Shown piece after piece: positions 181 to 42,501 of a stretch of 42,501 nucleotides of DNA (positions are counted from its first letter, which is position 1; the number at the start of each line of letters is the position of its first letter). A program made the translations under genes and the position numbers. The stretch comes from Sterolibacterium sp. (GTDB lineage: Bacteria; Pseudomonadota; Gammaproteobacteria; Burkholderiales; Rhodocyclaceae), in NCBI GenBank assembly GCA_018061005.1, contig JAGOVA010000022.1, positions 1 through 42,501 of the forward strand, given 5' to 3'. The notes under the pieces were generated by a model, which ran no database searches, was not told the origin of the DNA, and saw only the letters and a program-made list of their open reading frames with translations.

Positions 181-699
181 ATGCAGACCCTGATTCTTGG
201 CGGCGTACGCTCGGGTAAGAGCCGACTGGCTGAACAGATGGCGCAGCGCAGCGCTTGCCCTGTCACCTACATTGCCACGGCTGATGCGGGCGATGGGGAA
301 ATGGCGACGCGTATTGCCCATCATCGCGCCGCACGTCCGGCGAACTGGCTCACGGTCGAAGCACCGGTTTCGCTGGCGGCTACGCTCAAACACCATGCGT
401 CGCCGGGTCGCCTGTTGCTGGTCGATTGCCTGACCCTGTGGCTCACCAACCTGCTGCTGGCAGCCGACCCGGACAGCCTGCAACGCGAGCGGGCAGCTTT
501 GCTCGATGTGCTGCCGAAGCTGCCGGGAGAACTCATCCTGGTCAGCAATGAAACCGGCATGGGCATCGTGCCACTCGGTGAATTGACGCGCCGTTATTGC
601 GACGAAGCCGGCTGGCTGCATCAAGACATCGCTGCACAGGTCGAACGCGTCATCCTGACCATCGCCGGATTACCGCATTATCTGAAAGGAACCCCATGA
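181..699 (+). CDS. cobU: Adenosylcobinamide kinase / adenosylcobinamide-phosphate guanylyltransferase
   Basis: Bifunctional cytoplasmic enzyme of late cobalamin synthesis. It phosphorylates adenosylcobinamide and transfers GMP to give AdoCbi-GDP. The 172-residue protein has the P-loop GGVRSGKS at residues 7-14, then the HHRAARP.NW segment corresponding to the guanylate-attachment region, and [14 protein letters not shown] and [11 protein letters not shown], all typical of CobU/CobP. The frame is open back to GTG 130, but ATG 181 gives the family N-terminus ([14 protein letters not shown]) and lies downstream of the proposed -10. The Shine-Dalgarno is weak. Its stop overlaps the cobT ATG (ATGA), so it is the first gene of a coupled cobUTCS operon. 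Confidence 0.95.
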
Positions 700-1772
700 A
701 ACCCGACTGGCTCGACACCCCGCTCCACCCGCTGGATACCGCCATGGCCGATGCCGCGCGTGCGCGGCAAAATCAGCTCACCAAGCCGCCCGGCGCACTG
801 GGTGAGCTGGAAGAAATTGCTATACGGCTGGCCGCCATGCAGTCTTGTGTACGCCCCCGCCTCGATGCCATCCGCATCGCCGTATTTGCCGCCGATCATG
901 GCATTTGCGCGGAAGGTATTTCAGCCTTCCCGCAAGCCGTGACCGGCGAAATGATCAAGAATTTTGCGCGCGGCGGCGCTGCCATCAGCGTACTGGCACG
1001 GCAACTGGGCGCACTACTTGAAGTCATCGACCTGGGCACTGCGACCGGGTTGCGCGATGTGCCCGGCGTGCTGCACCGGCCCATTGCGGCAGGTACCGCC
1101 AATTTCGCCCATGTACCTGCGATGACGGCCGCGCAATGCGCCCTTGCCCTTGATGCCGGGCGCGCCGCCATCGCACGGGCGGTGCAACAGGGCACGCAGC
1201 TCTTCATTGGCGGTGAAATGGGTATCGGCAACACTACCGCTGCGGCGGCGCTGGCCTGTGCGCTGCTGAACGAAGCCCCTGAACGGCTGGCCGGCCCCGG
1301 TACTGGGCTGGATCGTCACGGCGTCAGCCACAAGGCGCACGTCATTGGCCGCGCGCTGGAACTACACCGCGCCGCAGTACAAAGCCCTTTTGAAGCTCTG
1401 CGCCATCTGGGTGGTTTTGAAATCGCCGCGTTGAGTGGTGCCTACATCGCCGCAGCGCAAGCCGGCCTGCCGGTACTGATCGACGGCTTTATCACCACCG
1501 CCGCCGCACTCACCGCCGAACGACTGCATCCCGGTGTATCGGCCTGGTTCTTCTATGGTCACGGCTCGGCGGAGCCCGGCCATGCCCATCTGCTGGCCGC
1601 ATTGAATGCGCGCCCCTTGCTGTCGCTGGGGATGCGCCTGGGCGAAGCCAGCGGTGCGGCCGTTGCCGCGCCCTTGCTGCGTCTAGCCTGCCAGTTGCAT
1701 GATGGGATGGCAACCTTTGCCGAAGCCGCGGTGTCTCAAGCGCCGGAAATACACAATAGCAGCGCAGCATGA
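696..1772 (+). CDS. cobT: Nicotinate-nucleotide--dimethylbenzimidazole phosphoribosyltransferase
   Basis: Makes alpha-ribazole 5'-phosphate from nicotinate mononucleotide and dimethylbenzimidazole for the lower ligand of cobalamin. The protein has 358 residues, the usual length. Recognisable blocks are [12 protein letters not shown] near the N-terminus, [17 protein letters not shown] in the middle, and [10 protein letters not shown] near the C-terminus. In the last, the Glu corresponds to the catalytic Glu of the LGEGTGA motif, with GT replaced by AS. The start ATG 696 overlaps the cobU stop and follows GAAAGGA. Its own stop overlaps the cobC ATG. The context is nucleotide-loop assembly; no dimethylbenzimidazole-synthesis gene is present in the window. 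Confidence 0.96.
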
Positions 1773-2374
1773 GCATTACCCTGTTACGCCACGGTGCGAC
1801 GAGTGCTTGCATCAGCGGGGTCTTGCGCGGTCGGCGAGATGATCCGCTGACGGAAGAAGGTTGGCAGCAGATGCGCGCGGCCACAGCTACTCACCTGCAT
1901 CCCACGCACCCAGAAACCGACGCATGGCAGACCATCATCAGCTCACCGCTGATCCGCTGCGCGGCGTTTGCCCGAGAACTCGCGCAGGCACGCGGCCTGC
2001 CGCTTCACGTTGACGATCGGCTGAGCGAACTCGACTTCGGTGCCTGGGAAGGACGGCGTTTGGATGAACTGATGCAGGACGCAGAGGACAAAGAAACCTT
2101 GCGGCGTTTCTGGGAAAATCCCTGGCAACAGCCACCGCCGCAAGGAGAAACCCTGACGGCCTTTGAATCGCGCATCCGGGCGGCCTGGCAAAGCCTGCTG
2201 ACCCAACATGCCGGCCAGCGCGTCCTCGTCATCACCCACGGCGGTGTCATCCGCCTGCTGCTCTGTGCCGCACGCGGTCTGCCGCGTCATCAGTTATTGC
2301 AGATCGAAGTGGCAAATGCCTCGCTGCATACCCTGGCGGCACACCCCCTGCCCTCATTGTGCGACGATGAATAA
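1769..2374 (+). CDS. cobC: Alpha-ribazole phosphatase (histidine phosphatase family)
   Basis: A 201-residue histidine phosphatase. It starts with the LLRHG signature (R7, H8), and has a second catalytic region [13 protein letters not shown] and a C-terminal THGGVIR. The location between cobT and cobS, with 4-base and 8-base overlaps, argues for removal of the 5'-phosphate from alpha-ribazole phosphate or from cobalamin phosphate. From sequence alone the family is broad, so the specific name rests on operon context. A second paralogue of the same superfamily lies at 23862-24500 in an unrelated operon. Confidence 0.9.
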
Positions 2375-3137
2375 CCCCTTGCGTCTGCTGGTCATCGCCC
2401 TGCAATTTCTGACCCGCCTGCCGATCGCACTGCGCATGCCACCGGGCGATATCGAAGTCGGCCGTTCGCTGCTCTGCTATCCGCTGGTAGGACTGCTGAT
2501 TGGCGGCCTGCTAACGGGGCTGGCTCTGCTCTGCCGAGGGCACCTCCCGCCCCTGCCTGCGGCCGCGCTGCTGCTGACGGTCTGGGTTGGTATTCATGGG
2601 GGGTTACACCTCGACGGCCTGGCCGACAGTGCCGATGCCTGGGCTGGCAGCCGGGGCGAAGCCGCGCGCGCACTGGCGATCATGAAAGACCCGAACTGCG
2701 GGCCATTGGGCGTGGTGATGATCGTGATCGTCCTGCTGCTCAAGTTTTCCGCGCTGGCCAGCCTGCTGACGGCGACCACAGCCGGGCACCCCGCACCACT
2801 GTTCATTGCCCCCCTGCTCATCGCGCCAGTATTGGGTCGCCTGGTGCTGCTGCCGCTGTTGATGACCACTGATTATGTGCGCGCCCAAGGTCTGGGCAGT
2901 GCCATGCACGCCCATCTGCCCCATCGGGCGGCCTGGCTGCTGATCGCCACCATCGTCTGGGGCATATTCTGGCTGCAAGGGGAGCGCGCCCTGCTGCCTT
3001 GTCTCTTGGCACTGTTCAGCTTCATCGCGCTGCGCTGGCTGATGCGCCGTGTGATCGGCGGCATGACGGGTGATACGGCAGGCGCAACGGTGGAGATTGT
3101 GGAAGCTGCCGTGCTGCTGGGCTGCCTGTGGCAATGA
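2367..3137 (+). CDS. cobS: Adenosylcobinamide-GDP ribazoletransferase (cobalamin synthase)
   Basis: Integral membrane enzyme that joins AdoCbi-GDP to alpha-ribazole (phosphate) to finish cobalamin. The 256-residue protein has several hydrophobic segments, the N-terminal FLTRLP motif, the GGLHLDGLADSADAW signature around residue 75-90 with its acidic residues, and the C-terminal GGMTGDTAGA motif. The open frame runs upstream inside cobC, but ATG 2367, overlapping the cobC stop by 8 bases, gives the family N-terminus ([19 protein letters not shown]). It ends only 3 bases before the convergent stop of the membrane protein at 3141, so no separate terminator fits between them. Confidence 0.96.
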   Translation: MNNPLRLLVIALQFLTRLPIALRMPPGDIEVGRSLLCYPLVGLLIGGLLTGLALLCRGHLPPLPAAALLLTVWVGIHGGLHLDGLADSADAWAGSRGEAARALAIMKDPNCGPLGVVMIVIVLLLKFSALASLLTATTAGHPAPLFIAPLLIAPVLGRLVLLPLLMTTDYVRAQGLGSAMHAHLPHRAAWLLIATIVWGIFWLQGERALLPCLLALFSFIALRWLMRRVIGGMTGDTAGATVEIVEAAVLLGCLWQ

Positions 3138-3140
3138 TTC

Positions 3141-4919
3141 TTACATCGCCTGATTCGTGCGATTCGTACGAATCACCAGGCTACCGCCCACAGCAGGCAG
3201 CTGCGCCGGAACAAACTGCTTGTTCTGCCATTCCATGACTTCATAACGATCCAACTCACCCGGTTTGAAACGATAACGGATGCCGGTGGGGTTACCCGCC
3301 GTCGAGACCGCCAGCACCTCGATGACAACCCCTTCGTAATGCACGACTTCACCGGGAGCAAAACCATAGGTGGGCAGGCGCAAGCTCGACAAACCTTCAG
3401 GCTGCGTCACCTGTAAGACCAGCGTATCCGCAGCGGGGCGCGTCAGGGTGTACGGCGTCAGGCTCTCGGCCAGGGCAAATATCTGGTGGATCGCAGGCAC
3501 CGGGCGGCTGGGCGCGCTCCCCAGTGAAAACGCCTTATCCTTGAGCAATGGAAAGGTCACATCCGTAATGTAGTTGTTGCATGACAGCAGCAAGACATGA
3601 CGATCCTGACCCACCGCGTTCGGCAGTTTCACCACCTGCGTATCCCATTGTCGATCGAGCAATTCCAAAGCCTGTCCGTGCACCAAATAAAGCAGTGGAC
3701 TGAGCCATAAATGCAGAACCAGCATCAGCCCGAGAAAGAGCTGGCTATAACGCCGCTCATGCAAGCCGAAATGTCCCTGCCGGTATTCATGCACATAGAG
3801 TGCCAGCAAGCCTGTCGCACCAAAGCCGACATACCAGAGTACGCGGCTGACCATGGTGATACCACTCAGGGGCAATAACGCAATCAACATACCCAGCGCG
3901 TAAAAACGGGCGGCTGCCGAGTTTCGCAGCAAGGGCCAGAAGAACCAGCCCAGCAGACCGACCAGCACCAGCACATAGAGCAGCGTGGGATACAAGGCCA
4001 GCGCACGCGCTGGCGGCACTTCAAGCAAGCCAAGAACTTCGGCGGGTGGCGGAAAGAACTGGCTGGCCAGATAGGCCGGTGCGCGGAACAGCATTTCCTG
4101 CACGAACAGCAGCGGGTTGTGTCCAGGATCTATATAGAAACCCGGCCCGAAAGTGCCATACCCGCCCTGCCGCCAGAAACTGAGATAGGCCACGCCAACT
4201 ACGCCATACGGCAGCAAACGCAGGAAACGCTGCCCCCAGCGTTCGCGGGAAATAAACAGCTCATAGGCCAGCAGGTAACCGCTGATCGCCAGCGCCGACT
4301 CCCCCGCCATCAAGGCCAGCGCAAACAGCAAAGCCGCCACCAGCCGCTGGCCGGTAAATGCGGCGCGATGACAATACAAACAGAGCAAACCGCACATCAG
4401 GCTGAGCAACACATTACGATTACACAGCCAGGCCACGGCACCGCCATGCGGGGCATCCAGCGCAAACAGCACCACGGCCAGACCGGCAGCCCAGGCGGCG
4501 GGCATGAACGTGCGGTAGAGCAGCCCCGCCACCGCGACCAGCGCGCCATACCAGAGTACCGAATGCAGATGCATCAGCCAGAGGGTGTTGGGAAACAGCG
4601 CGTAATCGAAGCGCGTCAGCCAGGCGGCCAACGGGCGAAAGAAAACGATGCGGGTCTCCGGATGTAACCACCACGGCAGTTCGCCGGAAGGAATCAGCGA
4701 CTCGCCATAGCCGAAGTTGTCAAAGATGTTGGTGTCACCCGTCAGCAGCTTGATGCGCTGGGCGTAATCATCGAGGTAAATCCCGTTGAACAGCATCGGC
4801 AACGAGATGAGCACCGCCAGTAGGACGGCGATAAGGAGGATGTCGCGCCGCTCAAAAACAGCGTCCTTGCCCGCCAGCAAGCGGCTGACCAAAGCGGATT
4901 CAGTGCGGGGAGCGTTCAT
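3141..4919 (-). CDS. Polytopic membrane protein, GT-C glycosyltransferase-like, function unknown
   Basis: A 592-residue protein not assigned to a named family. After a short cytoplasmic N-terminus there is a transmembrane helix (about 27-47), followed by an extracytoplasmic loop that opens with YLDDY (D50, D51). About nine further hydrophobic segments reach to about residue 420. The last 160 residues are soluble and beta-rich in appearance. An acidic pair just after helix 1 is the hallmark of GT-C enzymes such as PMT/ArnT-type transferases that use lipid-linked sugars, so transfer of a sugar at the periplasmic face is a reasonable inference, not a demonstration. It may instead be a membrane protein of unrelated role. 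It is convergent with cobS and precedes no obvious polysaccharide genes. SD GGAA lies 6 bases from the ATG. Confidence 0.75.
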   Translation of the reverse strand: MNAPRTESALVSRLLAGKDAVFERRDILLIAVLLAVLISLPMLFNGIYLDDYAQRIKLLTGDTNIFDNFGYGESLIPSGELPWWLHPETRIVFFRPLAAWLTRFDYALFPNTLWLMHLHSVLWYGALVAVAGLLYRTFMPAAWAAGLAVVLFALDAPHGGAVAWLCNRNVLLSLMCGLLCLYCHRAAFTGQRLVAALLFALALMAGESALAISGYLLAYELFISRERWGQRFLRLLPYGVVGVAYLSFWRQGGYGTFGPGFYIDPGHNPLLFVQEMLFRAPAYLASQFFPPPAEVLGLLEVPPARALALYPTLLYVLVLVGLLGWFFWPLLRNSAAARFYALGMLIALLPLSGITMVSRVLWYVGFGATGLLALYVHEYRQGHFGLHERRYSQLFLGLMLVLHLWLSPLLYLVHGQALELLDRQWDTQVVKLPNAVGQDRHVLLLSCNNYITDVTFPLLKDKAFSLGSAPSRPVPAIHQIFALAESLTPYTLTRPAADTLVLQVTQPEGLSSLRLPTYGFAPGEVVHYEGVVIEVLAVSTAGNPTGIRYRFKPGELDRYEVMEWQNKQFVPAQLPAVGGSLVIRTNRTNQAM

Positions 4920-4989
4920 GGCAGGTTCCGTGACTTTCGGGCAGCTTGGATAACGTGGACAGCGCGGACTACAAAGGGAACCTGCGATT

Positions 4990-7900
4990 TTACGATGTCA
5001 CCACGGGGTTTTTCACGGGATTTTCCACGCTCTCGGTCACACTATTGGTCACCCCGGCACGCCGATAACGCTGCCACCACGCGCTGCCCCAGGCGACAAA
5101 TTCATCGACATAGGAGAAAGCCACAGGAATCACCAGCAGGCTGAGGAAAGTCGAGGTAATCAGCCCGCCGATGACCACAATGGCCATCGGCGCGCGGAAA
5201 CTCGGGTCGGTACCGATGCCCAGCGCGATCGGCAACATGCCCGCGCCCATCGCGATGGTGGTCATGATGATCGGCCGGGCGCGCTTGAGACAGGCATCGA
5301 TCAGCGCCTGACGCCGCTCCATGCCGTAATCACGCCGCGCCACAATGGCGTAATCGATCAGCAGGATGGAATTTTTTGTGGCGATCCCCATCAGCATGAT
5401 CATGCCGATCATCGACGGCATCGAAATGGCCTTCTGCGTAACGAACAGGGCAATGAACGCCCCCGGAATCGACAACACCAGCGCCATCAGAATCGTCACC
5501 GGCTGGATGAAATCCTTGAACAGCAGCACCAACACCACATAAATACACAGGATGCCCGCCACCATCGCCAGGGTAAAGCCCTGATACAGCTCGGCCATCG
5601 ATTCGGCATCGCCCACCGTGGTCTGCGTGATGCCAGACGGCAGATTCCGCACGCTGGGCATTGCCAGCACGGCTTTTTCGATATCGCCCAGCGGCTGGCC
5701 ATTGAGCTCGATTTCGAAGTTGATATTACGCAAACGGTCATAACGGTCGATCTCGGCCGGGCCACCGCCGATGGTCATGCTGGCGACATTGGCCAGCATG
5801 ACCGGGCCGTTCTTGCCGGGCAGACGCAAACGCTCAATCTGCGAAAGATCGGCACGCGCCCCCAGCGGCAAACGAACCACAATCGGAATCTGGCGTTGCG
5901 ACAGGTTCAGCTTGGCCAGTGCCTGATCGTAATCTCCTGCCGTCGCCACCCGCACGGTGTCGGCAATATCGGCCGCCGTGACCCCGGCATCGGCCATGCG
6001 CGCAGAATCCGGTTTGATGAGCAATTCCGGACGCACCAGGCTGGCACTGGAAATGATGCTGCCCACGCCCGGCAGGGTACGCAACTCAGCCTCCACCTTG
6101 CGTGCCTGCTGCGACAACAAGGCACTATGCTCGCTGGCCAGAACCAGGGTGTATTTTTCCGCAGCCGAACCCAGCCCCACTTTAATCTGCACACCGGGGA
6201 TTGCTTTCAGGGCTTCGCGGATTTCGCGTTCGATCGTCTGTTTGGAAACCCCATGGCGTTCTTCACGCGGCGTGAGGTTGAGGGTCAGCGTTGCCTTGCG
6301 AACTTCGGCCGCACCGCCTGGCATGAAGGGGTCACTGCCCGATTTGCCGCCACCAATGGCGGTGTACACCATCTTCACATGAGGATTGCGTTGCAGCACC
6401 GCGCGCGCTGCTTCGGCCGTTTTGAACATGTCTTGATAGGTACTGCCCGGCGACAGGGACAGATGCACCTGCGACTGGGAAAAATCATCCGGCGGGATAA
6501 AACCTGCCGGCAGCAACGGCACCAAAGCGAAGGAACCAATCAGGAAACCGCCCGTCACCAGCAAGGTGGTCACCCGATGGCGCAGACAGGCTTCCACCCA
6601 GGTGCCATACACGCCCAGCCAGCGCGGCTCCACCAGGGCATGCGTGATCGGCTTCATCATGTAGGCCGCCATCATCGGCGTGAGCATGCGCGCCACCACC
6701 AGCGAGAGAAACACCGCGATCGCCGCCGTCCAGCCAAACTGCACAAAGAACTTGCCGGGCAGGCCGCCCATGAAGGCCGTGGGCAAAAACACGGCAATCA
6801 GGGTGAAGGTAGTGGCGATCACAGCCAGGCCGATTTCATCGGCGGCTTCCATCGCAGCCTGCATCGGTGTCTTGCCCTGCGCGAGATGGCGGACGATGTT
6901 TTCGATTTCGACAATCGCATCATCGACCAGAATACCGATCACCAATGACATCGACAGCATGCTGACAATGCTGATCGTAAACCCCAGTTGGTGGATGATG
7001 GCGAAGGTCGGGATGATCGACAGCGGCAAGGCCGTGGCGGAAATGAAAGTCGCCCGCGCATCGCGCAGGAACAGCCAGACAACGATCACGGCAAGAATGG
7101 CACCCTCGATCAGCAGTTTCATCGAGCCTTCGTAGTTATCCACCACCGGATCGACGAAATTGAAGGCTTCGGTGATTTCAATATCGGCATGTTCGGCTTT
7201 GAGTTGTGCCAGCTTCTCGCGCACATGCTGTGTCACCGTCACCGCACCGATCCCCCGACTGCGCGTGATCTCAAAGCCCACCACCGGTTGGCCATTGAGC
7301 AATGCGCCACTGCGTCGCTCGGCCACGGTATCGGTCACTCGCGCCACTTCATCGAGACGCACATGACGACCCGAAGCCAGCGGAATTTGCAGTGCTGCCA
7401 GTTCACTGGCACTGGCCACCGTGGCCACGGTACGCACCGTCTGCTCGGCGCCGCCGATGTCGGTCTGTCCGCCCGAGGCTTCCTGCTGCACACGCCGCAA
7501 CTGGCGTGAAATCTCGGCGGCCGTCGCGTTCAGTGCCAGCATGCGCGCCGGATCAAGCTCCACCCGCACTTCACGCGTCACCCCGCCCACGCGCGACACC
7601 GCCCCCACGCCTTTCGCACTGAGCAGCCGCTTGGCCACGACATGATCGACAAACCACGACAAGGCTTCATCATCCATGCGTTTTGACGCGACGGTGTAAG
7701 TCAGAATCGGGCTGCCGGCCAGATCGAGTTTCTCGATCACCGGATCCTTGAGATCGCCGGGCAGATCGGCGCGGATGCGCCCCACCGCAGCGCGCACGTC
7801 ATCGACGGCCTCCTGCGGCGGCTTTTCCAGACGGAATTCGGCGGTCACAATGGCCGTGCCATCCTGCACATGGGTGTACAGATGCTTGAGGCCGCGCAAG

Positions 7901-8118
7901 CCCGCCAGCGTATTTTCGATCTTGCGCGCCACCTCGGTTTCCATCTGCGAAGGGGCAGCGCCCGGCAGCGCGGCGGTCACCAGCACCGTGGGCAGTTCGA
8001 CATCGGGAAACTGCTGGATCTCCATCGCGCGGAAAGACACGATGCCGGCCAGCGTCAGCATCAGGAACAGCAGGATGGCCGGAATGGGATTGCGGATCGA
8101 CCAGGCGGAAACATTCAT
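4990..8118 (-). CDS. RND family efflux transporter, permease subunit (AcrB/MexB-like)
   Basis: Inner-membrane proton-driven RND permease of 1042 residues, full length for the HAE/AcrB group. Visible features are an N-terminal helix with the usual start (W.IRNPI), a large periplasmic loop, transmembrane block with GILVDDAIVEIENI (D399 and D400, the TM4 proton-relay pair), a second periplasmic loop, and the C-terminal block with GIATKNSILLIDYA (the Lys of TM10). The ATG at 8118 has SD GGAG at 7 bases. It lies 16 bases downstream of the membrane fusion protein gene, in the same unit. No outer-membrane channel gene or regulator is nearby, so the pump probably borrows a TolC-type channel. Substrate unknown. 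Confidence 0.94.
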   Translation of the reverse strand: MNVSAWSIRNPIPAILLFLMLTLAGIVSFRAMEIQQFPDVELPTVLVTAALPGAAPSQMETEVARKIENTLAGLRGLKHLYTHVQDGTAIVTAEFRLEKPPQEAVDDVRAAVGRIRADLPGDLKDPVIEKLDLAGSPILTYTVASKRMDDEALSWFVDHVVAKRLLSAKGVGAVSRVGGVTREVRVELDPARMLALNATAAEISRQLRRVQQEASGGQTDIGGAEQTVRTVATVASASELAALQIPLASGRHVRLDEVARVTDTVAERRSGALLNGQPVVGFEITRSRGIGAVTVTQHVREKLAQLKAEHADIEITEAFNFVDPVVDNYEGSMKLLIEGAILAVIVVWLFLRDARATFISATALPLSIIPTFAIIHQLGFTISIVSMLSMSLVIGILVDDAIVEIENIVRHLAQGKTPMQAAMEAADEIGLAVIATTFTLIAVFLPTAFMGGLPGKFFVQFGWTAAIAVFLSLVVARMLTPMMAAYMMKPITHALVEPRWLGVYGTWVEACLRHRVTTLLVTGGFLIGSFALVPLLPAGFIPPDDFSQSQVHLSLSPGSTYQDMFKTAEAARAVLQRNPHVKMVYTAIGGGKSGSDPFMPGGAAEVRKATLTLNLTPREERHGVSKQTIEREIREALKAIPGVQIKVGLGSAAEKYTLVLASEHSALLSQQARKVEAELRTLPGVGSIISSASLVRPELLIKPDSARMADAGVTAADIADTVRVATAGDYDQALAKLNLSQRQIPIVVRLPLGARADLSQIERLRLPGKNGPVMLANVASMTIGGGPAEIDRYDRLRNINFEIELNGQPLGDIEKAVLAMPSVRNLPSGITQTTVGDAESMAELYQGFTLAMVAGILCIYVVLVLLFKDFIQPVTILMALVLSIPGAFIALFVTQKAISMPSMIGMIMLMGIATKNSILLIDYAIVARRDYGMERRQALIDACLKRARPIIMTTIAMGAGMLPIALGIGTDPSFRAPMAIVVIGGLITSTFLSLLVIPVAFSYVDEFVAWGSAWWQRYRRAGVTNSVTESVENPVKNPVVTS

Positions 8119-8134
8119 GGGATGGCTCCGTGTC

Positions 8135-9298
8135 TCAGTGTGCTGCAGTTACGGCTGAGGCTGCAGCCACCACGGCCACCCCATCGCCATCGGCCAGAAA
8201 ACCCGCGCCTGTATCGACGACCCGCTCGCCAGAGGCCAGCCCCTCGACGATTTCAATCCGATCACCCATGCGTCGCCCGGTTTTAACGCGCTTTTGTAAG
8301 GCGCGCACCGGCTCGCCCGCCACCACAAACACATAGGAATAGCCCTCACGCAGCACCACGGCGGCGGCCGGGATCGTCAATGCCACGGCCTGCCCGGTAT
8401 CAATCTGGCCGCGCGCGAACATGCCAGCGCGCAAATCTTCGCCCGCTGGCAGGTCGATATACACAATCCCATTGCGCGTGCGTGGATCGACACTCGGCGC
8501 CACATTGCGCACCTGGCCATGCACCACCTCGCCATCCGCCAATTCCACCTGCGCGGCCACGCCCGGCTTGATGCGCGCCAACTGCACTGCGGGTGCTTCA
8601 GCATGCCACTCGATACGGCCACCGCGAATCAGCCGGAACAGCTCCTGCCCGGGCTGGGTCAGCGAACCGACCACCGCACTGCGCCCGGAGATGACCCCAT
8701 CATCGGGCGCGGTCACACTCGCCTTGGCCACATGCAGCTGTGCCAGACGCAGCCGTGCACGCGCCGCCGCCAGGCGGGCATCGGTCGCCCGCTCGGTGGT
8801 GACATACTGCCCCTGGGTCTGCACGCTGTAAAAACCTTTGTCACGCAAGGTTTGCGCCCGTTCGGCATTGCCGCGCGCCTCGCTGCTCACCGCCTCCAGT
8901 TCACGCACCACGGCAGCGGCTTCATCCTGCTCATTGGCCACGGTATCCTCGGCGATCCGCGCCAGCACCTGATGCTTGCGTACCCGGTCGCCCACCTGCA
9001 CCAGCACCTCGCTGATCCGGTAATACGGCAATTCCGCACCGACCACCGCCTCCTGCCAGGCCACCACATTGCCATCCAGCGACAAACGCTGCGGCCAGTT
9101 TTCCTCATGCGGCAAAGTCACGGTCACCGTCAGTGCCGGTTTGAGCGTCGCGGCTGACGCGGTCTTGTCGCCCTCATGTGCCGCTGTCGCCGCATCGCGG
9201 GTCATCCACCAGCCCGCCACAATGAGACCCAGCAGCAACAGCCACCAGCCCAGTTTGCCCGGAGCCCGCATCCCACCGCCCAGATTGACCAACGCCAT
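8135..9298 (-). CDS. RND efflux membrane fusion protein (periplasmic adaptor)
   Basis: A 387-residue periplasmic adaptor. One N-terminal membrane anchor (about residues 15-33) is followed by a barrel-sandwich/lipoyl half (VVAWQEAVVGAELPYYRI), an alpha-hairpin rich in Ala, Arg and Glu (about 125-185), the second lipoyl half (VTAPDDGVISGRSAVVG) and a C-terminal beta-barrel and membrane-proximal domain. GTG 9304 is possible, but ATG 9298 is preferred because GAGGGG lies 5 bases upstream of it and only a base or so from the GTG. It forms a two-gene unit with the RND permease. The leader carries an inverted repeat directly before the SD and an octamer array, so regulation at this leader is likely. 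Confidence 0.93.
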   Translation of the reverse strand: MALVNLGGGMRAPGKLGWWLLLLGLIVAGWWMTRDAATAAHEGDKTASAATLKPALTVTVTLPHEENWPQRLSLDGNVVAWQEAVVGAELPYYRISEVLVQVGDRVRKHQVLARIAEDTVANEQDEAAAVVRELEAVSSEARGNAERAQTLRDKGFYSVQTQGQYVTTERATDARLAAARARLRLAQLHVAKASVTAPDDGVISGRSAVVGSLTQPGQELFRLIRGGRIEWHAEAPAVQLARIKPGVAAQVELADGEVVHGQVRNVAPSVDPRTRNGIVYIDLPAGEDLRAGMFARGQIDTGQAVALTIPAAAVVLREGYSYVFVVAGEPVRALQKRVKTGRRMGDRIEIVEGLASGERVVDTGAGFLADGDGVAVVAAASAVTAAH

Positions 9299-9311
9299 GA
9301 CCACCCCTCAC

Positions 9312-9336
9312 GCAATGTCCTCACGGCGGACATTGC
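9312..9336. promoter_or_regulatory. 9-bp inverted repeat in the efflux operon leader
   Basis: GCAATGTCC (9312-9320) and GGACATTGC (9328-9336) are perfect inverted repeats separated by 7 bases. The element ends 3 bases before the Shine-Dalgarno of the membrane fusion gene. As DNA it has the size of a TetR-type operator; as RNA it would be a 9-bp hairpin beside the ribosome site. Sequence alone does not separate the two. Confidence 0.5.
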
Positions 9337-9347
9337 CCGGGACGATA

Positions 9348-9379
9348 TTGACGACTTGACTACTCAACGATTTGACGAC
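9348..9379. repeat. Four tandem 8-bp units (TTGACGAC-like)
   Basis: Four consecutive octamers, TTGACGAC, TTGACTAC, TCAACGAT and TTGACGAC, stand in perfect 8-base register. Units 1 and 4 are identical, unit 2 differs at one base and unit 3 at three. They lie between the candidate -10 and the inverted repeat upstream of the membrane fusion gene. This could be a regulator array or a chance micro-repeat. Confidence 0.5.
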
Positions 9380-9433
9380 CCACGCCCGAATGCGACGCCA
9401 TTCAGCACGGCCACACTGGGTCGCCGATTCGAC

Positions 9434-9439
9434 ATTATA
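9434..9439 (-). promoter_or_regulatory. Candidate -10 (TATAAT) for the efflux operon
   Basis: The minus strand reads TATAAT here, about 135 bases before the membrane fusion gene start. No convincing -35 hexamer stands at 16-18 bases. If used, it gives a leader of about 130 nt containing the octamer array and the inverted repeat. The 193-base gap 9299-9491 holds no gene. Confidence 0.35.
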
Positions 9440-9491
9440 CCCGGGCAGCAGGCATTCTCACCGAGCAGGCCGCCAGATTTCGGCGCGCAAT

Positions 9492-11597
<2,106 letters not shown>

Positions 11598-12217: not shown

Positions 12218-13882
12218 ATGCAACACGTTTCTGAGTATGACCATGATTACATTGTCATCGGTTCCGGCTTCGGTGGCAGTGTTTCCGCCTTACGGCTGAC
12301 GGAAAAGGGGTACTCGGTCGGCGTGATGGAAATGGGGCGACGCTGGAATGCGGAGAATCTGCCGAAAACCAACTGGTCGCTGGCCAACTGGCTGTGGCTT
12401 CCGCAGGTCGGGCTGCGGGGTTTCTTCAACATCAGTCTGTTCAAACGGATCATCGTGCTGCATGGCAATGCCGTGGGCGGCGGCTCCATCACTTATGCGA
12501 GCGTGCTGCTGGTGCCGCCCGATCGCGCCTGGGAACAAGGCAGCTGGGTGGGGCTTAATGACTGGAAGGCGGTAATGCCCGCGCATTACGCGACGGCGCA
12601 GAGCATGCTGGGGGTGACTAAAAACCGCCTGCTGGGGCCCGCTGACCATCGCTTGCGTGAGATGGCCAGTCACATCGGCGTGGAAAATTCCTTTTACACC
12701 ACCCGCGTGGGCATTTATTTTGGCCAGGAAGGCGATGCCCCGGGCACGACCCGCCCTGATCCCTATTTCAGCGGTGCGGGCCCTTCACGTTCGGCCTGCA
12801 TCGGCTGCGGCGGCTGCATGGTGGGTTGCCAGCACAACGCCAAAAATACACTGGACAGAAATTATCTGTATCTGGCTGAACAAGGCGGTGCGCGGGTGTA
12901 TGAGGAAACCCGCGTCGTCGATGTCCGGCCGCTCAATGGCCAGAGCGACGGAGCGGCGGGTTATGAAGTCACCACCATTTCCAGCCGCTGGGGGCTGTGG
13001 CACAAGAAAACGCGCCATACCTGCCGGGGCGTGGTGTTTTCCGGCTCTTCACTGGGCACGCAAAGTCTGCTGTTCCGGCTGAAGCAGGACGGCGCGCTGC
13101 CGCATATTTCCGCAGCATTGGGTAAAAAAGTCCGCACCAATGCCGAGTCGCTGATCGGCGTGCGCTTTCCCGGCAGCCCGGTCGATTTATCGACCGGCGT
13201 GGCAATCGGTTCGGGCATTCATATTGATCAGCACACGCATATCGAAGCCACGCGCTATCCGGCGGGGTCGGATGCGATGGGGCTGCTCAGCACCCTGATG
13301 GCCACCGGCTGGCCACGTTGGCCTGGGCTGCGCCCGCTGGACTGGCTGCTGACCCTGCTGAAATCGCTGCTGACCCACCCGTGGCGCACGCTGCGTCTGC
13401 TCTGGCCGGTCGGTTATGCCCGTGAAACCATGATTTTTCTGTGCATGCAGACCCTCGAAGGCCATCTCGACATGCAGCTCAAACGCCCCTGGTATTGGCC
13501 GTTTTCCCGTCTGCTGGTGGCCGAAGGCGAGCCAATTCCGGTGTCCATCCCCGCCGCCAACGCGTTTGCCCAGGCAGCCGCAGCAGCCACTGGCGGCATT
13601 CCCACCAATTTTGCGCCCGAGGTTTTTCTCAACATCCCCGCCACCGCGCACTGTATGGGCGGGGCGGCCATGGGTCGCAACCGGCAGGAAGGCGTATGCG
13701 ACGGCAAGAACCGGATTTTTGGCTACCGCAACCTGTACATCTGCGACGGCGCGATGCTGGGCGGCAATCTGGGGGTCAACCCCAGCCTCACCATCACGGC
13801 ACTGAGCGAACATGCCATGAGCCATATTCCACCCGCCCACGCGCAACGCTGGGATGCGACGGGCGTAGAAGCGGGCGGATGA
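12218..13882 (+). CDS. GMC family oxidoreductase, cholesterol-oxidase-like (ChoD type)
   Basis: FAD enzyme of 554 residues oxidising an alcohol, probably a long-chain or sterol-type substrate. Visible are the N-terminal FAD motif IGSGFGG (14-20), GNAVGGGS (83-90), and the C-terminal block with H478 in the HCMGG segment and N521 in GNLGVNPS, the counterparts of the GMC catalytic His/Asn pair. Between the halves is a four-cysteine cluster C194-x2-C197-x2-C200-x3-C204 followed by NAKNTL, a feature of the ChoD-like branch and of Fe-S ligand shape. There is no secretion signal. SD GGAGGGAG gives a firm start at 12218. It is transcribed away from the thioesterase-fadH unit. The substrate is not known. 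Confidence 0.85.
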   Translation: MQHVSEYDHDYIVIGSGFGGSVSALRLTEKGYSVGVMEMGRRWNAENLPKTNWSLANWLWLPQVGLRGFFNISLFKRIIVLHGNAVGGGSITYASVLLVPPDRAWEQGSWVGLNDWKAVMPAHYATAQSMLGVTKNRLLGPADHRLREMASHIGVENSFYTTRVGIYFGQEGDAPGTTRPDPYFSGAGPSRSACIGCGGCMVGCQHNAKNTLDRNYLYLAEQGGARVYEETRVVDVRPLNGQSDGAAGYEVTTISSRWGLWHKKTRHTCRGVVFSGSSLGTQSLLFRLKQDGALPHISAALGKKVRTNAESLIGVRFPGSPVDLSTGVAIGSGIHIDQHTHIEATRYPAGSDAMGLLSTLMATGWPRWPGLRPLDWLLTLLKSLLTHPWRTLRLLWPVGYARETMIFLCMQTLEGHLDMQLKRPWYWPFSRLLVAEGEPIPVSIPAANAFAQAAAAATGGIPTNFAPEVFLNIPATAHCMGGAAMGRNRQEGVCDGKNRIFGYRNLYICDGAMLGGNLGVNPSLTITALSEHAMSHIPPAHAQRWDATGVEAGG

Positions 13883-38480: not shown

Positions 38481-39272
38481 TCAATGTGACGACGGGGCTT
38501 TTCGGTGCAGGGTGATCGGAATGGGTGCCCCCTGGCCGACCATCCCCTGTGCCATACCTGATGCGGAATGACCCTCCTCACTTTCCGGCGGCTCCGGATG
38601 CGGTTGCGGTGGCGGCAGATGCGCCACCTTGTTTTCCAGCAGACGCTGCTCATGACATATGAATTGCGCCATCAATTCGCCCATCGCCCGATAATAAGCC
38701 GGTGCCTTCTGATCCTTGAGCTTGTTGGCCAGATCAGGAACCCAGCTCGCTGGATGACGGTTGATGAAATCACGTTGCGCACGAATGAAATCATCCGGCG
38801 TTTCGTTCGTGGCAAGGGCTTCGAGCTCATGGAAGATCAGGTAATGCATGAACTCGAATTGCGTACTCAGATGGTCGGGCAATTCGTTTGCTTCGGTTCC
38901 GGCGGCGGTCAGACCAAAGTAGTTATAGAAACGCACCAGTTCTTCAAGCAGCCCCATGCGGGCATCGCCCTTGGCCGCACCGCTGTTGAGCGAACACGGC
39001 GGGCCATCCGTACCGCCGACATCGAACAGACGGGTAAATTCAACGGAAAGCTCATCGGTCTCACCCGCCTGCGCCAGCGCGTCCCAGTCAATCGCCTTTT
39101 CCAGTTCGGGGTGAATGGCACAGAAGGTCTCACGCGCCTGGCGGGCAATGTCGCCCGCACGAATCAGGTCGGTGAGCTCGCCTTCCGGATACTCCATCGC
39201 GGCCGCCAGAAAGCCATACGCCTGGCTGCGCTTCTGGTCGATGCTTTCTGCTGCTGTGTTTGCATTGCTCAT
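38481..39272 (-). CDS. TorD/DmsD-family chaperone for the molybdoenzyme
   Basis: Cytoplasmic redox-enzyme maturation chaperone (263 residues) that would bind the Tat signal and help cofactor loading of the catalytic subunit encoded just upstream. It is mostly helical. It has FTRLFDVGG.DGPP (79-92), where family members usually have LF..GPP, and the signature ELPDHLSTQFEFM (130-142). The last 47 residues (about 217-263) are a Pro/Glu/His/Gly-rich tail (LPPPQPHPEPPE...) not usual for the fold. It is in the place of the D gene of clr/ser/ddh operons. A terminator-like hairpin separates it from the catalytic gene. Confidence 0.88.
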   Translation of the reverse strand: MSNANTAAESIDQKRSQAYGFLAAAMEYPEGELTDLIRAGDIARQARETFCAIHPELEKAIDWDALAQAGETDELSVEFTRLFDVGGTDGPPCSLNSGAAKGDARMGLLEELVRFYNYFGLTAAGTEANELPDHLSTQFEFMHYLIFHELEALATNETPDDFIRAQRDFINRHPASWVPDLANKLKDQKAPAYYRAMGELMAQFICHEQRLLENKVAHLPPPQPHPEPPESEEGHSASGMAQGMVGQGAPIPITLHRKAPSSH

Positions 39273-39292
39273 TGGTCTATACCCATCCCATC

Positions 39293-39322
39293 AAAAAGAA
39301 TGACGCGGAACAAACCGCGTCA
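39293..39322 (-). terminator. Terminator-like hairpin between catalytic subunit and chaperone genes
   Basis: On the minus strand TGACGCGG (39322-39315), a 6-base loop and CCGCGTCA (39308-39301) make a perfect 8-bp GC-rich stem, followed by TTCTTTTTGA (39300-39291). It sits 20 bases before the chaperone ATG and 99 bases after the catalytic gene stop. It looks like an intercistronic attenuator lowering chaperone expression. Confidence 0.7.
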
Positions 39323-39421
39323 AAACCTGCTGTCATGTTGTCACATGGCGGACAAGAGCTGCATGATACCGCAGACCTTGCCCGGCAAAACCCAGAATGG
39401 GGAGTTCAGTCAGCCACAGAC

Positions 39422-42307
39422 TCAGACCTTGGCGACATCGAGCGCCGCCCCATGGGGAACGTGGCTGGGACCGCCGTAGAACATGCGATAGTGCAGCTGG
39501 CTGTAGCCTCCGGCCAGATGCAATGCCTTCCAGGGGGCTTCCACCGGCTCCTGCTGACCCTTCCAGTTCTTGAACTGGAAGGGCTCCCAGGCGTGATACA
39601 TGATTACTTCACCCGGCGCACAGATGGCGGCGACCTTGACCATGCACTCGAAAGCACCGTGGTCGTTGAACACCTTGACCATGTCACCATCCTTGATGCC
39701 CCGCGCGTCCGTGTCCTTCGGATTCATCCAGCAGGCGGGCTGGCCGCGCTGCAGGCGCAACAGCAATTTGACATCGCGCCAGATGGAGTGAATCGACCAG
39801 CGGTTGTGTCCCCCGGCAAAACGCAAGGGATACTTGCTGGCGTGCATCGGTGACTCTTTATGACAGGGCAAAGCCTCGCCGCCTTCGATGAACCAGGGAT
39901 GATCGATATAAAACTGCATACGTCCGGTGAGCGTCGGCCAAGAGGACTTCTTCTCGATCATGTCGCGATGCGCCCAGTGCGTATCCTTCGGGTCGTAATC
40001 TGAATAATTCTGGTTGATGATGCCCGGCCGCGCACTGGCGATCACCGGCACAGCCCCCATATCCAGTGCTTCACGGCCGGTACGCGCCGCCACGCTGGGG
40101 CTCTTCTCGAAAATCTCGTCCATGAAGCGCATCGGATCTTCCGGATCCAGCGGATCAAACTTGCCGTGATCGGTGTGATGGTCGTACACCTTGGTCAGAT
40201 CGAGGGGCTTATCGTGCCAGCCCCGCACCGGGCCGATATTGCGCGCCTTGGCCCGTTCGGAAATCAGCTTGCTCATGCGTCCGAAAATTTCCCATTCATT
40301 CTTGGACTCACCCAGAGGCTCCGTCGCCTTGTCCGAACAGATGACATAAGGCACATAGGTCACGGCATACTTGATCCCCACCTTCTCGTAATAGGCGGCG
40401 GCTGGCAACACATAATCGGCAAACATACACGATGTCGTCATCTTGAAATTAACACCGACGATGATGTCCAGCTTGGGCCACAGATGTTTCTTGGCAATCT
40501 CCGGTGAAGGCCAGCGACGCAGCATGTTGCAACCCGTGAAGATATAGGCCTTGGGCGAGCGATCCTCACGCGGCGAAACCTTGATCCAGCCCTTGTCAAT
40601 CGACTCACGCAAATAAGAAGACAGATCGCGCGGCAAGGTCTTGTCCTGCAGATGGGGCTTGTCCCACAACTCTTTGTAGCCGCCATGCACATAAAGGAAG
40701 ACCATCAACGGTGTCCAGCCCTGCTTGTTGCTGACGTAAGTGTAGACATCCTCGTAATCACGCGGCGACATGCCCCGCACGGCCTTGGGAATCAGCTTGA
40801 TTTTTTCCATAGGCGTGAGCGCGCCATCATTCAGTGCCCCCAACCCTTCCAGCCACCACCAGCTCATCACCTTGATACCGCCACCCTGTTTTCCTTGGTT
40901 GCCGGTCAGATCCATCAGCAACGCCATGGCGCGCTGGAACAGGTCGCTGTGATAGTGCTTGCAAGCCCCCCAGGAGGCATAAATCATCGAGCTTTTCGCC
41001 TGCGCCATTTCACGCGCAAAGGCACGAATGACGTTCGGATGAACATCGCTGATTTTGGACGACAGTTCGGGCGTGAACTCTTTGTCCAGCTTGGCCTTCA
41101 GTTTGTCGAAAACAGTTTCGCATTCCACCGTGGAACCATCGGCCAGCTTGACCTGACGCGTCCCCGACAGTGCCGGCTTGAGGCTACCCAGCTTGAGGCT
41201 GCGCCCCCCGTCGCCGTCACCCATACAACCCGGCGCAATGACAATCTTGTTCGTGGCCTCGTCCCAGAAATACAGGCCATTCTCGTCACCGCCCTTGACC
41301 ACCTCATTGGCACGCAGGAAACGCTGGTTATCCTTGCGAACCAGAAAGGGGAAATCGGTCTGTTCAAGAACGTAATCCAGCTTGTAGAGTTTTTCTTGAA
41401 TGATGTATTGCGCCGCCGCCAACCCAAATGCCGGATCGCTTTCCGGGCGCAGCTTCACCCACATGTCAGCATGCACCGTCGAGGGGCTGAGATCGGGCGA
41501 AATCACACACATTTTGGCACCACGATAACGTGCCTCATGCATGAAATGCGCTTCAGGGATCTTGGTATAAATCGGATTACCGACCCAGATCACGATGAAA
41601 TCCGACAGATACCAGTCATCGGCCGAGCCTTCGGAGTTAAACATCCCCCAGGTCTGCACCAGACCCATCGGCATGTCGGACACCCCGGCCCAGGAGTCCA
41701 TCTGCGTACAGTTCATGGCTTCGGTAAACCGCACGTCCCCCGCCGTTTCCGGGCCAAACCCGCCATTGGTCGTACCATCGTCAAAAATAATGGACTCGGT
41801 CCCCTGATCCACGGCCACATCAATCAGCTTGTCGCAGATGTCGTTGAGTGCTTCATCCCATGAAATCCGTTTCCACTTGCCTTCGCCCCGCTCACCCACA
41901 CGCTTCAGCGGATACTTGAGACGCGATTCAGATACCTGCAAGGTGGTGTAGCACGCCCCCTTCTGGCAGCCACGCGGATTCATGTCCGGCACATCGGCGC
42001 GATGCGGCTCATAAATGGCGTTCTGTTCCTCGCGCCAGGCAATGCCATCGCGCACGTACACATCCCATGAACAGGCATCGCCACAGTTGGCGCGGGTGTG
42101 CGTCCCCTTGACGATCTTGTCCCACTTCCATTTCTCACGCCAGAGGTCGGAGTAATCGTTGTACTTGATTTTCTTGGCCAGCGTTTTCGGCTTCAACGCC
42201 GGGCCAGCCTTGATGGATGCAGGCGTTTTCGGCTTCAGGCTGTAAAGACCCAAGCCAGCGGCTGCGACGGCAGAGCCGACGATAAAATTACGACGGGATA
42301 CTTGCAT
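39422..42307 (-). CDS. Type II DMSO-reductase-family molybdoenzyme, catalytic subunit (Tat-exported)
   Basis: Periplasmic molybdopterin enzyme of 961 residues in the NarG/ClrA/SerA/DdhA/EbdA/NxrA group. It has a Tat signal (SRRNFIVGSAV, residues 4-14), the FS0 [4Fe-4S] site H70-x4-C75-x3-C79-x34-C114, and the family block WREEQNAIYEPHRADVPDMNPRGCQKGAC. The likely molybdenum ligand is D231 in SADDWYLSDF, matching the NarG Asp. C-terminal MoCo binding includes the MNPKDTDARGIKDGDMVKVFNDHG segment. SD AGGAG. Reduction of chlorate, selenate or nitrate, or oxidation of DMS or a hydrocarbon/sterol, are all possible; the sequence does not decide. The chaperone follows; an unidentified gene precedes by 65 bases. 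Confidence 0.9.
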   Translation of the reverse strand: MQVSRRNFIVGSAVAAAGLGLYSLKPKTPASIKAGPALKPKTLAKKIKYNDYSDLWREKWKWDKIVKGTHTRANCGDACSWDVYVRDGIAWREEQNAIYEPHRADVPDMNPRGCQKGACYTTLQVSESRLKYPLKRVGERGEGKWKRISWDEALNDICDKLIDVAVDQGTESIIFDDGTTNGGFGPETAGDVRFTEAMNCTQMDSWAGVSDMPMGLVQTWGMFNSEGSADDWYLSDFIVIWVGNPIYTKIPEAHFMHEARYRGAKMCVISPDLSPSTVHADMWVKLRPESDPAFGLAAAQYIIQEKLYKLDYVLEQTDFPFLVRKDNQRFLRANEVVKGGDENGLYFWDEATNKIVIAPGCMGDGDGGRSLKLGSLKPALSGTRQVKLADGSTVECETVFDKLKAKLDKEFTPELSSKISDVHPNVIRAFAREMAQAKSSMIYASWGACKHYHSDLFQRAMALLMDLTGNQGKQGGGIKVMSWWWLEGLGALNDGALTPMEKIKLIPKAVRGMSPRDYEDVYTYVSNKQGWTPLMVFLYVHGGYKELWDKPHLQDKTLPRDLSSYLRESIDKGWIKVSPREDRSPKAYIFTGCNMLRRWPSPEIAKKHLWPKLDIIVGVNFKMTTSCMFADYVLPAAAYYEKVGIKYAVTYVPYVICSDKATEPLGESKNEWEIFGRMSKLISERAKARNIGPVRGWHDKPLDLTKVYDHHTDHGKFDPLDPEDPMRFMDEIFEKSPSVAARTGREALDMGAVPVIASARPGIINQNYSDYDPKDTHWAHRDMIEKKSSWPTLTGRMQFYIDHPWFIEGGEALPCHKESPMHASKYPLRFAGGHNRWSIHSIWRDVKLLLRLQRGQPACWMNPKDTDARGIKDGDMVKVFNDHGAFECMVKVAAICAPGEVIMYHAWEPFQFKNWKGQQEPVEAPWKALHLAGGYSQLHYRMFYGGPSHVPHGAALDVAKV

Positions 42308-42372
42308 GATTGATACTCTCCTGTCAGTCAGTATTCTTTTGGTAGATCATTTTCATTCCGAAAATCCGCTGT

Positions 42373-42501
42373 TCAAGCCCAGCTCAGCGACTGCGGATTG
42401 ACATCAAAGCCGCCGAACATGTCGTTCCAGCGATAGGCGATGAGTAGATCCATCAGTTCAGACTTGCCGCCCTTGCGGACTTTCTCGCGTTCTTCCTTGA
42501 G
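42373..42501 (-). CDS. Partial gene: C-terminal 42 residues of the gene upstream of the molybdoenzyme
   Basis: The window edge cuts this frame. Visible is a 42-residue C-terminus, charged at first (LKEEREKVRKGG) then with an aromatic segment YRWNDMFGGFDVNPQSLSWA and a TGA stop at 42373-42375. The stop lies 65 bases before the catalytic subunit start, so the two are probably co-transcribed. It could be the Fe-S beta subunit, a heme-b gamma subunit or an accessory protein. No cysteine or haem motif is in the visible part, so no assignment is made. Confidence 0.7.
   Translation of the reverse strand, partial: LKEEREKVRKGGKSELMDLLIAYRWNDMFGGFDVNPQSLSWA

Follow-up and report, generated by a model that had tools for sequence, protein, structure and literature searches.

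A gene cluster at the right edge of a Sterolibacterium contig raises the question of whether it represents a new kind of operon in the type II DMSO reductase family. The window, meaning the whole stretch of DNA that was analyzed, is the entire contig C33 and is 42,501 bases long. The ser, clr and ddh operons have the order ABDC, with the beta subunit gene directly after the catalytic gene, and the beta gene also follows alpha in the ethylbenzene dehydrogenase (EbDH) operon. The window differs from all of these, and from the selenate, chlorate and DMS enzymes (ser, clr, ddh) in particular, in having the chaperone gene after alpha and the beta gene before it. A preliminary description of the sequence compared the cluster with the clr, ser, ddh and ebd operons and described a gene X preceding the catalytic gene; the comparison omitted the branch of the sterol C25 hydroxylase S25DH. 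We searched 41 genomes, its own and 40 relatives. Among them is G002 (3.1 Mb, 4 contigs, 99% complete), which belongs to the same genus and carries a matching locus, L175. The features of the cluster in the window are as follows.

42375..42501, no strand: 127 bp identical to the start of contig C104; assembly break, most simply at a repeated gamma-beta unit
42501-42373, minus strand: 3' end of the beta (Fe-S) subunit gene (gene X), 42 codons plus stop; the ORF enters from the right edge
42307-39422, minus strand: catalytic alpha subunit, S25DH4 alpha4 orthologue, 961 aa, protein P0001; Tat-type N-terminus, with D211, K450, H70, C75, C79 and C114 kept
39421-39273, minus strand: intergenic gap from alpha to the chaperone, containing an inverted repeat with a T-rich tail and a 22-nt stretch, both also in L175
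39272-38481, minus strand: TorD-like dedicated chaperone SdhD (delta), 263 aa; matches TIGR03482 and PF02613; 194/262 residues identical to the L175 chaperone

Transcription proceeds from the beta tail through alpha to the chaperone, all on the minus strand. The coordinates in the preliminary description, with the catalytic gene at 42307..39422(-), the TorD-like gene at 39272..38481(-) and an upstream ORF cut by the right edge, were correct.

The truncated upstream gene and the contig break

The 42 residues of gene X align with the end of NF042979, the model for the beta subunit of ethylbenzene dehydrogenase (E = 1.8e-8, positions 315-351 of 354), and with the end of TIGR03478 (E = 1.3e-4). 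Because X matches the ends of both models, it is the beta subunit, and the NF042979 match rules out a novel gene. What had been described as an additional gene preceding alpha is the last 42 residues of beta. The ending of X is the same as that of the L175 beta gene, and the DNA is 89% identical over 125 bases.

The final 127 bp of the window recur unchanged as the opening 127 bp of contig C104, on which a different alpha gene comes after this same beta tail. When the L175 gamma protein was compared with the window's own genome, its first 36 residues (61% identity) were found where contig C95 ends and where contig C25 begins, and these two contig ends share 127 identical bases. A full beta gene and the window's gamma gene were not found in the search of the draft assembly, which holds only the ends: the beta tail in the window and the gamma 5' ends at the ends of C95 and C25. 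The simplest reading is that two near-identical gamma-beta units were collapsed by the assembler and are absent from the draft, with entry from C95 and C25 and exit to C104 and the window. Contig C33 thus probably ends inside beta because the genome carries two such units. Since C95, and not C25, matches the upstream flank of the alpha3 locus of G002 (L176), C25 is the likely left neighbor of the window. The contig ends suggest that the window's own gamma and full beta genes lie just upstream of alpha. The beta and gamma genes had been expected upstream, in agreement with X being the beta tail and with the gamma-beta pair upstream of alpha in L175. Near-identical gamma-beta pairs break draft assemblies, so that operons can look oddly arranged.

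One candidate for the missing gamma subunit, an EB_dh protein on contig C64, was rejected, as it is a stand-alone 319-aa ORF that gave no match in the search with gamma4. The ORFs beside it read as a putative uroporphyrinogen methyltransferase and cytochromes. A search with PF09459 is no test of gamma absence, because it also missed the gamma gene on contig C81.

The alpha and chaperone genes and their counterpart in G002

The assignment to the type II DMSO reductase family holds, as P0001 matches the alpha subunit model TIGR03479 over nearly its full length (910.1 bits, short of the curated 984.75-bit cut-off). A Tat signal is detected by TIGR01409 (19.5 bits; cut-off 16.7), while a second Tat model, PF10518, gives 19.8 bits, below its cut-off of 22.7. 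D211 and K450 occur at the same numbers as those given for S25DH in the available text of PMC6153880, in which Asp211 is the Mo ligand and Lys450 its partner. H70, C75, C79 and C114, which we take to be the Fe-S (FS0) ligands of alpha, are identical in all 15 alphas compared. Thus, the Asp ligand and four presumed FS0 ligands are kept, as the preliminary description had stated. Position 450 is Lys in 10 of the 15 alphas and Arg in the other five, which are the S26DH-type ones.

Could the enzyme be a respiratory reductase for selenate, chlorate or perchlorate, or an alkylbenzene dehydrogenase? It belongs to the same type II family, and EbdA and PcrA are the best solved relatives of P0001, led by the EbDH alpha subunit (2ivf, 548 bits). 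However, P0001 does not reach the EbdA equivalog model NF042978, scoring 616.7 bits against a cut-off of 2000, and EbdA falls in a different branch of a tree that has PcrA as outgroup and lacks ClrA, SerA and DdhA. In addition, the sterol pathway is represented in the window's own genome by an AcmB-like protein and by S26DH-like alphas. We consider such an enzyme very improbable.

The chaperone falls short of the cut-off for TIGR03482, the type II chaperone family (133.5 against 152.3 bits), and exceeds that for PF02613 (70.6 against 22.2 bits). It is 74% identical to the L175 chaperone; the available text of PMC7411048 names the S25DH chaperone gene SdhD (delta4). The chaperone gene does come after the catalytic gene, as first described, with a gap of 149 nt between them. 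This gap contains an inverted repeat, GACGCGG...CCGCGTC, with a T-rich tail (39321-39302), and the hairpin is also present in L175. A 22-nt stretch (39402-39381, minus strand) is identical in L175 and was absent elsewhere among the 20 sequences searched. Together, the gap features span 39301-39402 (minus) in the window and 8912-9026 in L175. This conserved gap may reduce transcription that continues past alpha into the chaperone gene. A scan for promoters (4 found; mean 2.1, sd 1.6) and terminators (5 found; mean 3.8, sd 2.1) gave numbers near chance.

AcmB of G002 and PDB 7p18 agree at 561 of 561 residues; the latter is AcmB of S. denitrificans Chol-1 according to the available text of PMC9736390, and we take G002 to be S. 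denitrificans. G002 has eight alphas of this type, as does S. denitrificans in the accessible parts of PMC6153880 and PMC6016249. At L175, gamma (4169-4822), beta (4927-5952), alpha (6010-8895) and the chaperone (9050-9856) are on one strand, with gamma and beta together taking up about 1.8 kb, and the L175 alpha is 92% identical to that of the window.

We assigned alpha numbers in G002 through identity values. The L178 alpha is 82% identical to L177, 74% to L176 and 72% to L175, and the values published for alpha2, alpha3 and alpha4 against alpha1 are 82, 74 and 72% (PMC6153880, accessible text). With L177 as the reference (for which a later start codon was used than in the ORF list), the values are 82, 74 and 71%, which makes the distinction between alpha1 and alpha2 less certain. 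G002 has two gamma-beta copies that agree at 99.9% over 1779 aligned nt, or at 99.8% over all 1784 without gaps, and copies 3 and 4 are described as almost identical (99%) in the available part of PMC6016249. The same text gives consecutive tags for S25DH4: SDENCHOL_20204 (27-kDa band), SDENCHOL_20205 (37-kDa band) and SDENCHOL_20206 (alpha). Because the L175 identities, the gamma-beta copies, the consecutive tags and SdhD all fit the published S25DH4, the window alpha is taken as the alpha4 orthologue.

We are highly confident that the window carries the right-hand part of a gamma-beta-alpha-delta S25DH4 cluster from a Sterolibacterium species other than S. denitrificans; the gene identities, the orthology, the cofactor residues and the gene order in the relative are shown by the analysis. 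Like S25DH4 of S. denitrificans (alpha4 beta4 gamma4, SDENCHOL_20206/20205/20204, plus SdhD), for which the G002 locus stands, the cluster has beta directly upstream of alpha and the chaperone directly downstream, and it shares the Mo and Fe-S residues. It differs in that the draft assembly lacks gamma and most of beta and in that the flanking DNA beyond the cluster has no match in the stretches compared. The window genome is not S. denitrificans itself, as its AcmB-like protein is only 82% identical to G002 AcmB. The idea that the gene order is unusual for this enzyme is not supported, as gamma-beta-alpha-chaperone is found at L175 and agrees with the consecutive S25DH4 tags.

Placement of alpha and the reaction proposed

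The preliminary description had named firm placement in a characterized clade as a finding that would count against its idea. We built a tree of 117 rows, comprising seven alphas of the window's own genome, eight of G002, EbdA, PcrA and 100 alpha ORFs. The 100 ORFs (850-1100 aa, excluding shorter fragments and longer fusions) came from 79 loci, which correspond to the 80 best among 340 confirmed stretches. The tree was inferred by a quick search, with no bootstrap and with PcrA set as outgroup. In this tree, which does not include ClrA, SerA, DdhA or NxrA, P0001 is firmly within a characterized clade: it pairs with the L175 alpha (SH-aLRT 100), is joined next by L039 (100), and lies in a clade of 13 rows (SH-aLRT 100) that also includes G002's four S25DH-type alphas. 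The branch of EbdA is long, and EbdA and the window row are among seven rows flagged for residue composition.

These data bear on the proposal that the operon is of a new kind, having a novel gene X and acting on an unknown substrate. The absence of beta after the catalytic gene, where the operons first compared have it, and the fact that the window stops inside X speak for this proposal. It is contradicted by the match of X to beta, by the same cluster in G002 and by the characterized clade, and we give it virtually no chance. Nor does the substrate appear open and possibly novel, since alpha belongs to the S25DH1-4 clade and substrates of S25DH4 are published. S25DH1-3 of S. denitrificans are in the same clade as the window alpha (69-72% identity), but they are other alphas, two of which in G002 (L177, L178) have no gamma-beta or chaperone genes nearby.

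The best account, by analogy with S25DH4, is that the window enzyme would be a periplasmic alpha-beta-gamma complex for the water-dependent C25 hydroxylation of 4-en-3-one sterols. In the accessible text of PMC6016249, S25DH4 hydroxylates plant and animal sterols with water and without oxygen, and the recombinant enzyme converts beta-sitost-, campest- and cholest-4-en-3-one. Expression of S25DH1-4 in Thauera aromatica K172 is published. The activity, substrates and electron path proposed here draw on the available parts of PMC6016249 and PMC6153880 and on the 92% identity. SdhD would help insert the Mo-bis-MGD cofactor into alpha, and the Tat signal carried by alpha would direct export of the complex to the periplasm. 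In that compartment, the Mo(VI)=O center, with Asp211 as ligand, would abstract a hydride or H atom at C25 of the 4-en-3-one sterol and deliver a water-derived hydroxyl in return. Electrons would pass from the Fe-S cluster of alpha to the Fe-S clusters of beta, then to heme b of gamma and on to cytochrome c.

It is unlikely that this S25DH-type enzyme has acquired a different sterol, or other isoprenoid, substrate since its lineage separated from S. denitrificans alpha4. The window alpha differs from alpha4 at 8% of residues, and S25DH1-4 differ in sterol preference at 72-82% identity in the accessible parts of PMC6016249 and PMC6153880. However, the window and L175 alphas are mutually nearest rows in the tree (path 0.089), and their cofactor residues are the same. 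With C25 hydroxylation of 4-en-3-one sterols as the preferred reading, a candidate for a new enzyme is removed, and the gene set is closely equivalent to that of a sterol hydroxylase that is already characterized. The window adds a second species with the S25DH4 cluster, a small addition to a known system.

Gene order in relatives and other sterol genes

We counted gene orders for 17 alphas in a wider 26-row clade around P0001, at loci from the best 80 of 340 stretches. Within this set, gamma-beta lies directly upstream of four alphas and upstream with another alpha in between for six; no beta was found upstream of the remaining seven, four of which have more than 2.5 kb of upstream sequence. 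Beta was downstream in none of these 17 (within 7 kb, same strand), where downstream sequence is short at some loci (2 bases at L052, 437 at L047). In G002, gamma-beta is directly upstream of alpha at L175 and L176, alpha stands alone at L177 and L178, and the gamma-beta-alpha-chaperone order recurs at L181, which is more distant. At the S26DH-type loci L179 and L180, the order is alpha-beta-gamma. Because beta is upstream in 10/17 and downstream in 0/17 of the alphas from the best 80 of 340 stretches, and L175, L176 and L181 of G002 have gamma-beta upstream as well, the window order is ordinary in the S25DH branch. In G001, which also belongs to the genus, the chaperone gene lies between two S25DH-type alphas (L182, 150-7733), with a 42-residue alpha tail left before the second; we read this as alphas and chaperone being shuffled between species.

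The window's own genome has two S26DH-type alphas and five S25DH-type alphas, one of which, on C96, is cut by the contig end; short alpha fragments occur at the starts of C16 and C125. The fifth S25DH-type alpha (L026, 3423-6317), the second gene on C104, follows the alpha3 orthologue in tandem. It keeps the Mo and Fe-S residues; among the S25DH-type alphas of G002, it shares 75-76% identity with three and 70% with the fourth. By identities and tree, it has no orthologue in G002, and it has no partner in the tree from G001 or G003, which are only 88% and 84% complete. It is possible, if doubtful, that this species has a wider sterol hydroxylase set than S. denitrificans, with five S25DH-type alphas sharing apparently two gamma-beta pairs. 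The second C104 alpha, lacking a G002 counterpart, may then take a sterol that S25DH1-4 refuse, and the alpha4 orthologue in the window may have shifted in preference too. The 92% identical alpha4 and the extra alpha are natural variants of enzymes already explored for making 25-hydroxyvitamin D3.

Contig C16 (L004) starts and ends with the same 127 bp, which is also the start of C125 (L028, first 190 bases), and an alpha with 93% identity is cut short by the end of C96 (L027). The pattern suggests that alpha1/alpha2-type genes recently formed a tandem pair, which the assembler then broke.

S26DH1-3, the steroid C26 dehydrogenases, share superfamily and pathway with the window alpha and are represented on C81. 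They differ in their 37-38% identity to it, in Arg at position 450 and in the order alpha-beta-gamma. The C81 cluster (L029, 5466-13950) reads alpha-beta-gamma-delta-alpha, and its alphas are 91% and 84% identical to G002 alphas.

Elsewhere in the window, CobT- and CobS-like cobalamin genes and an RND efflux pair were identified by Pfam at 597-3137 (+) and 4990-9304 (-). A 554-aa GMC-type flavoprotein (PF05199) is encoded at 12218-13882 (+). Among solved structures, it comes closest to cholesterol oxidases (1coy, E = 2.9e-21, a weak and mainly C-terminal match), and it is perhaps another sterol enzyme in the window.
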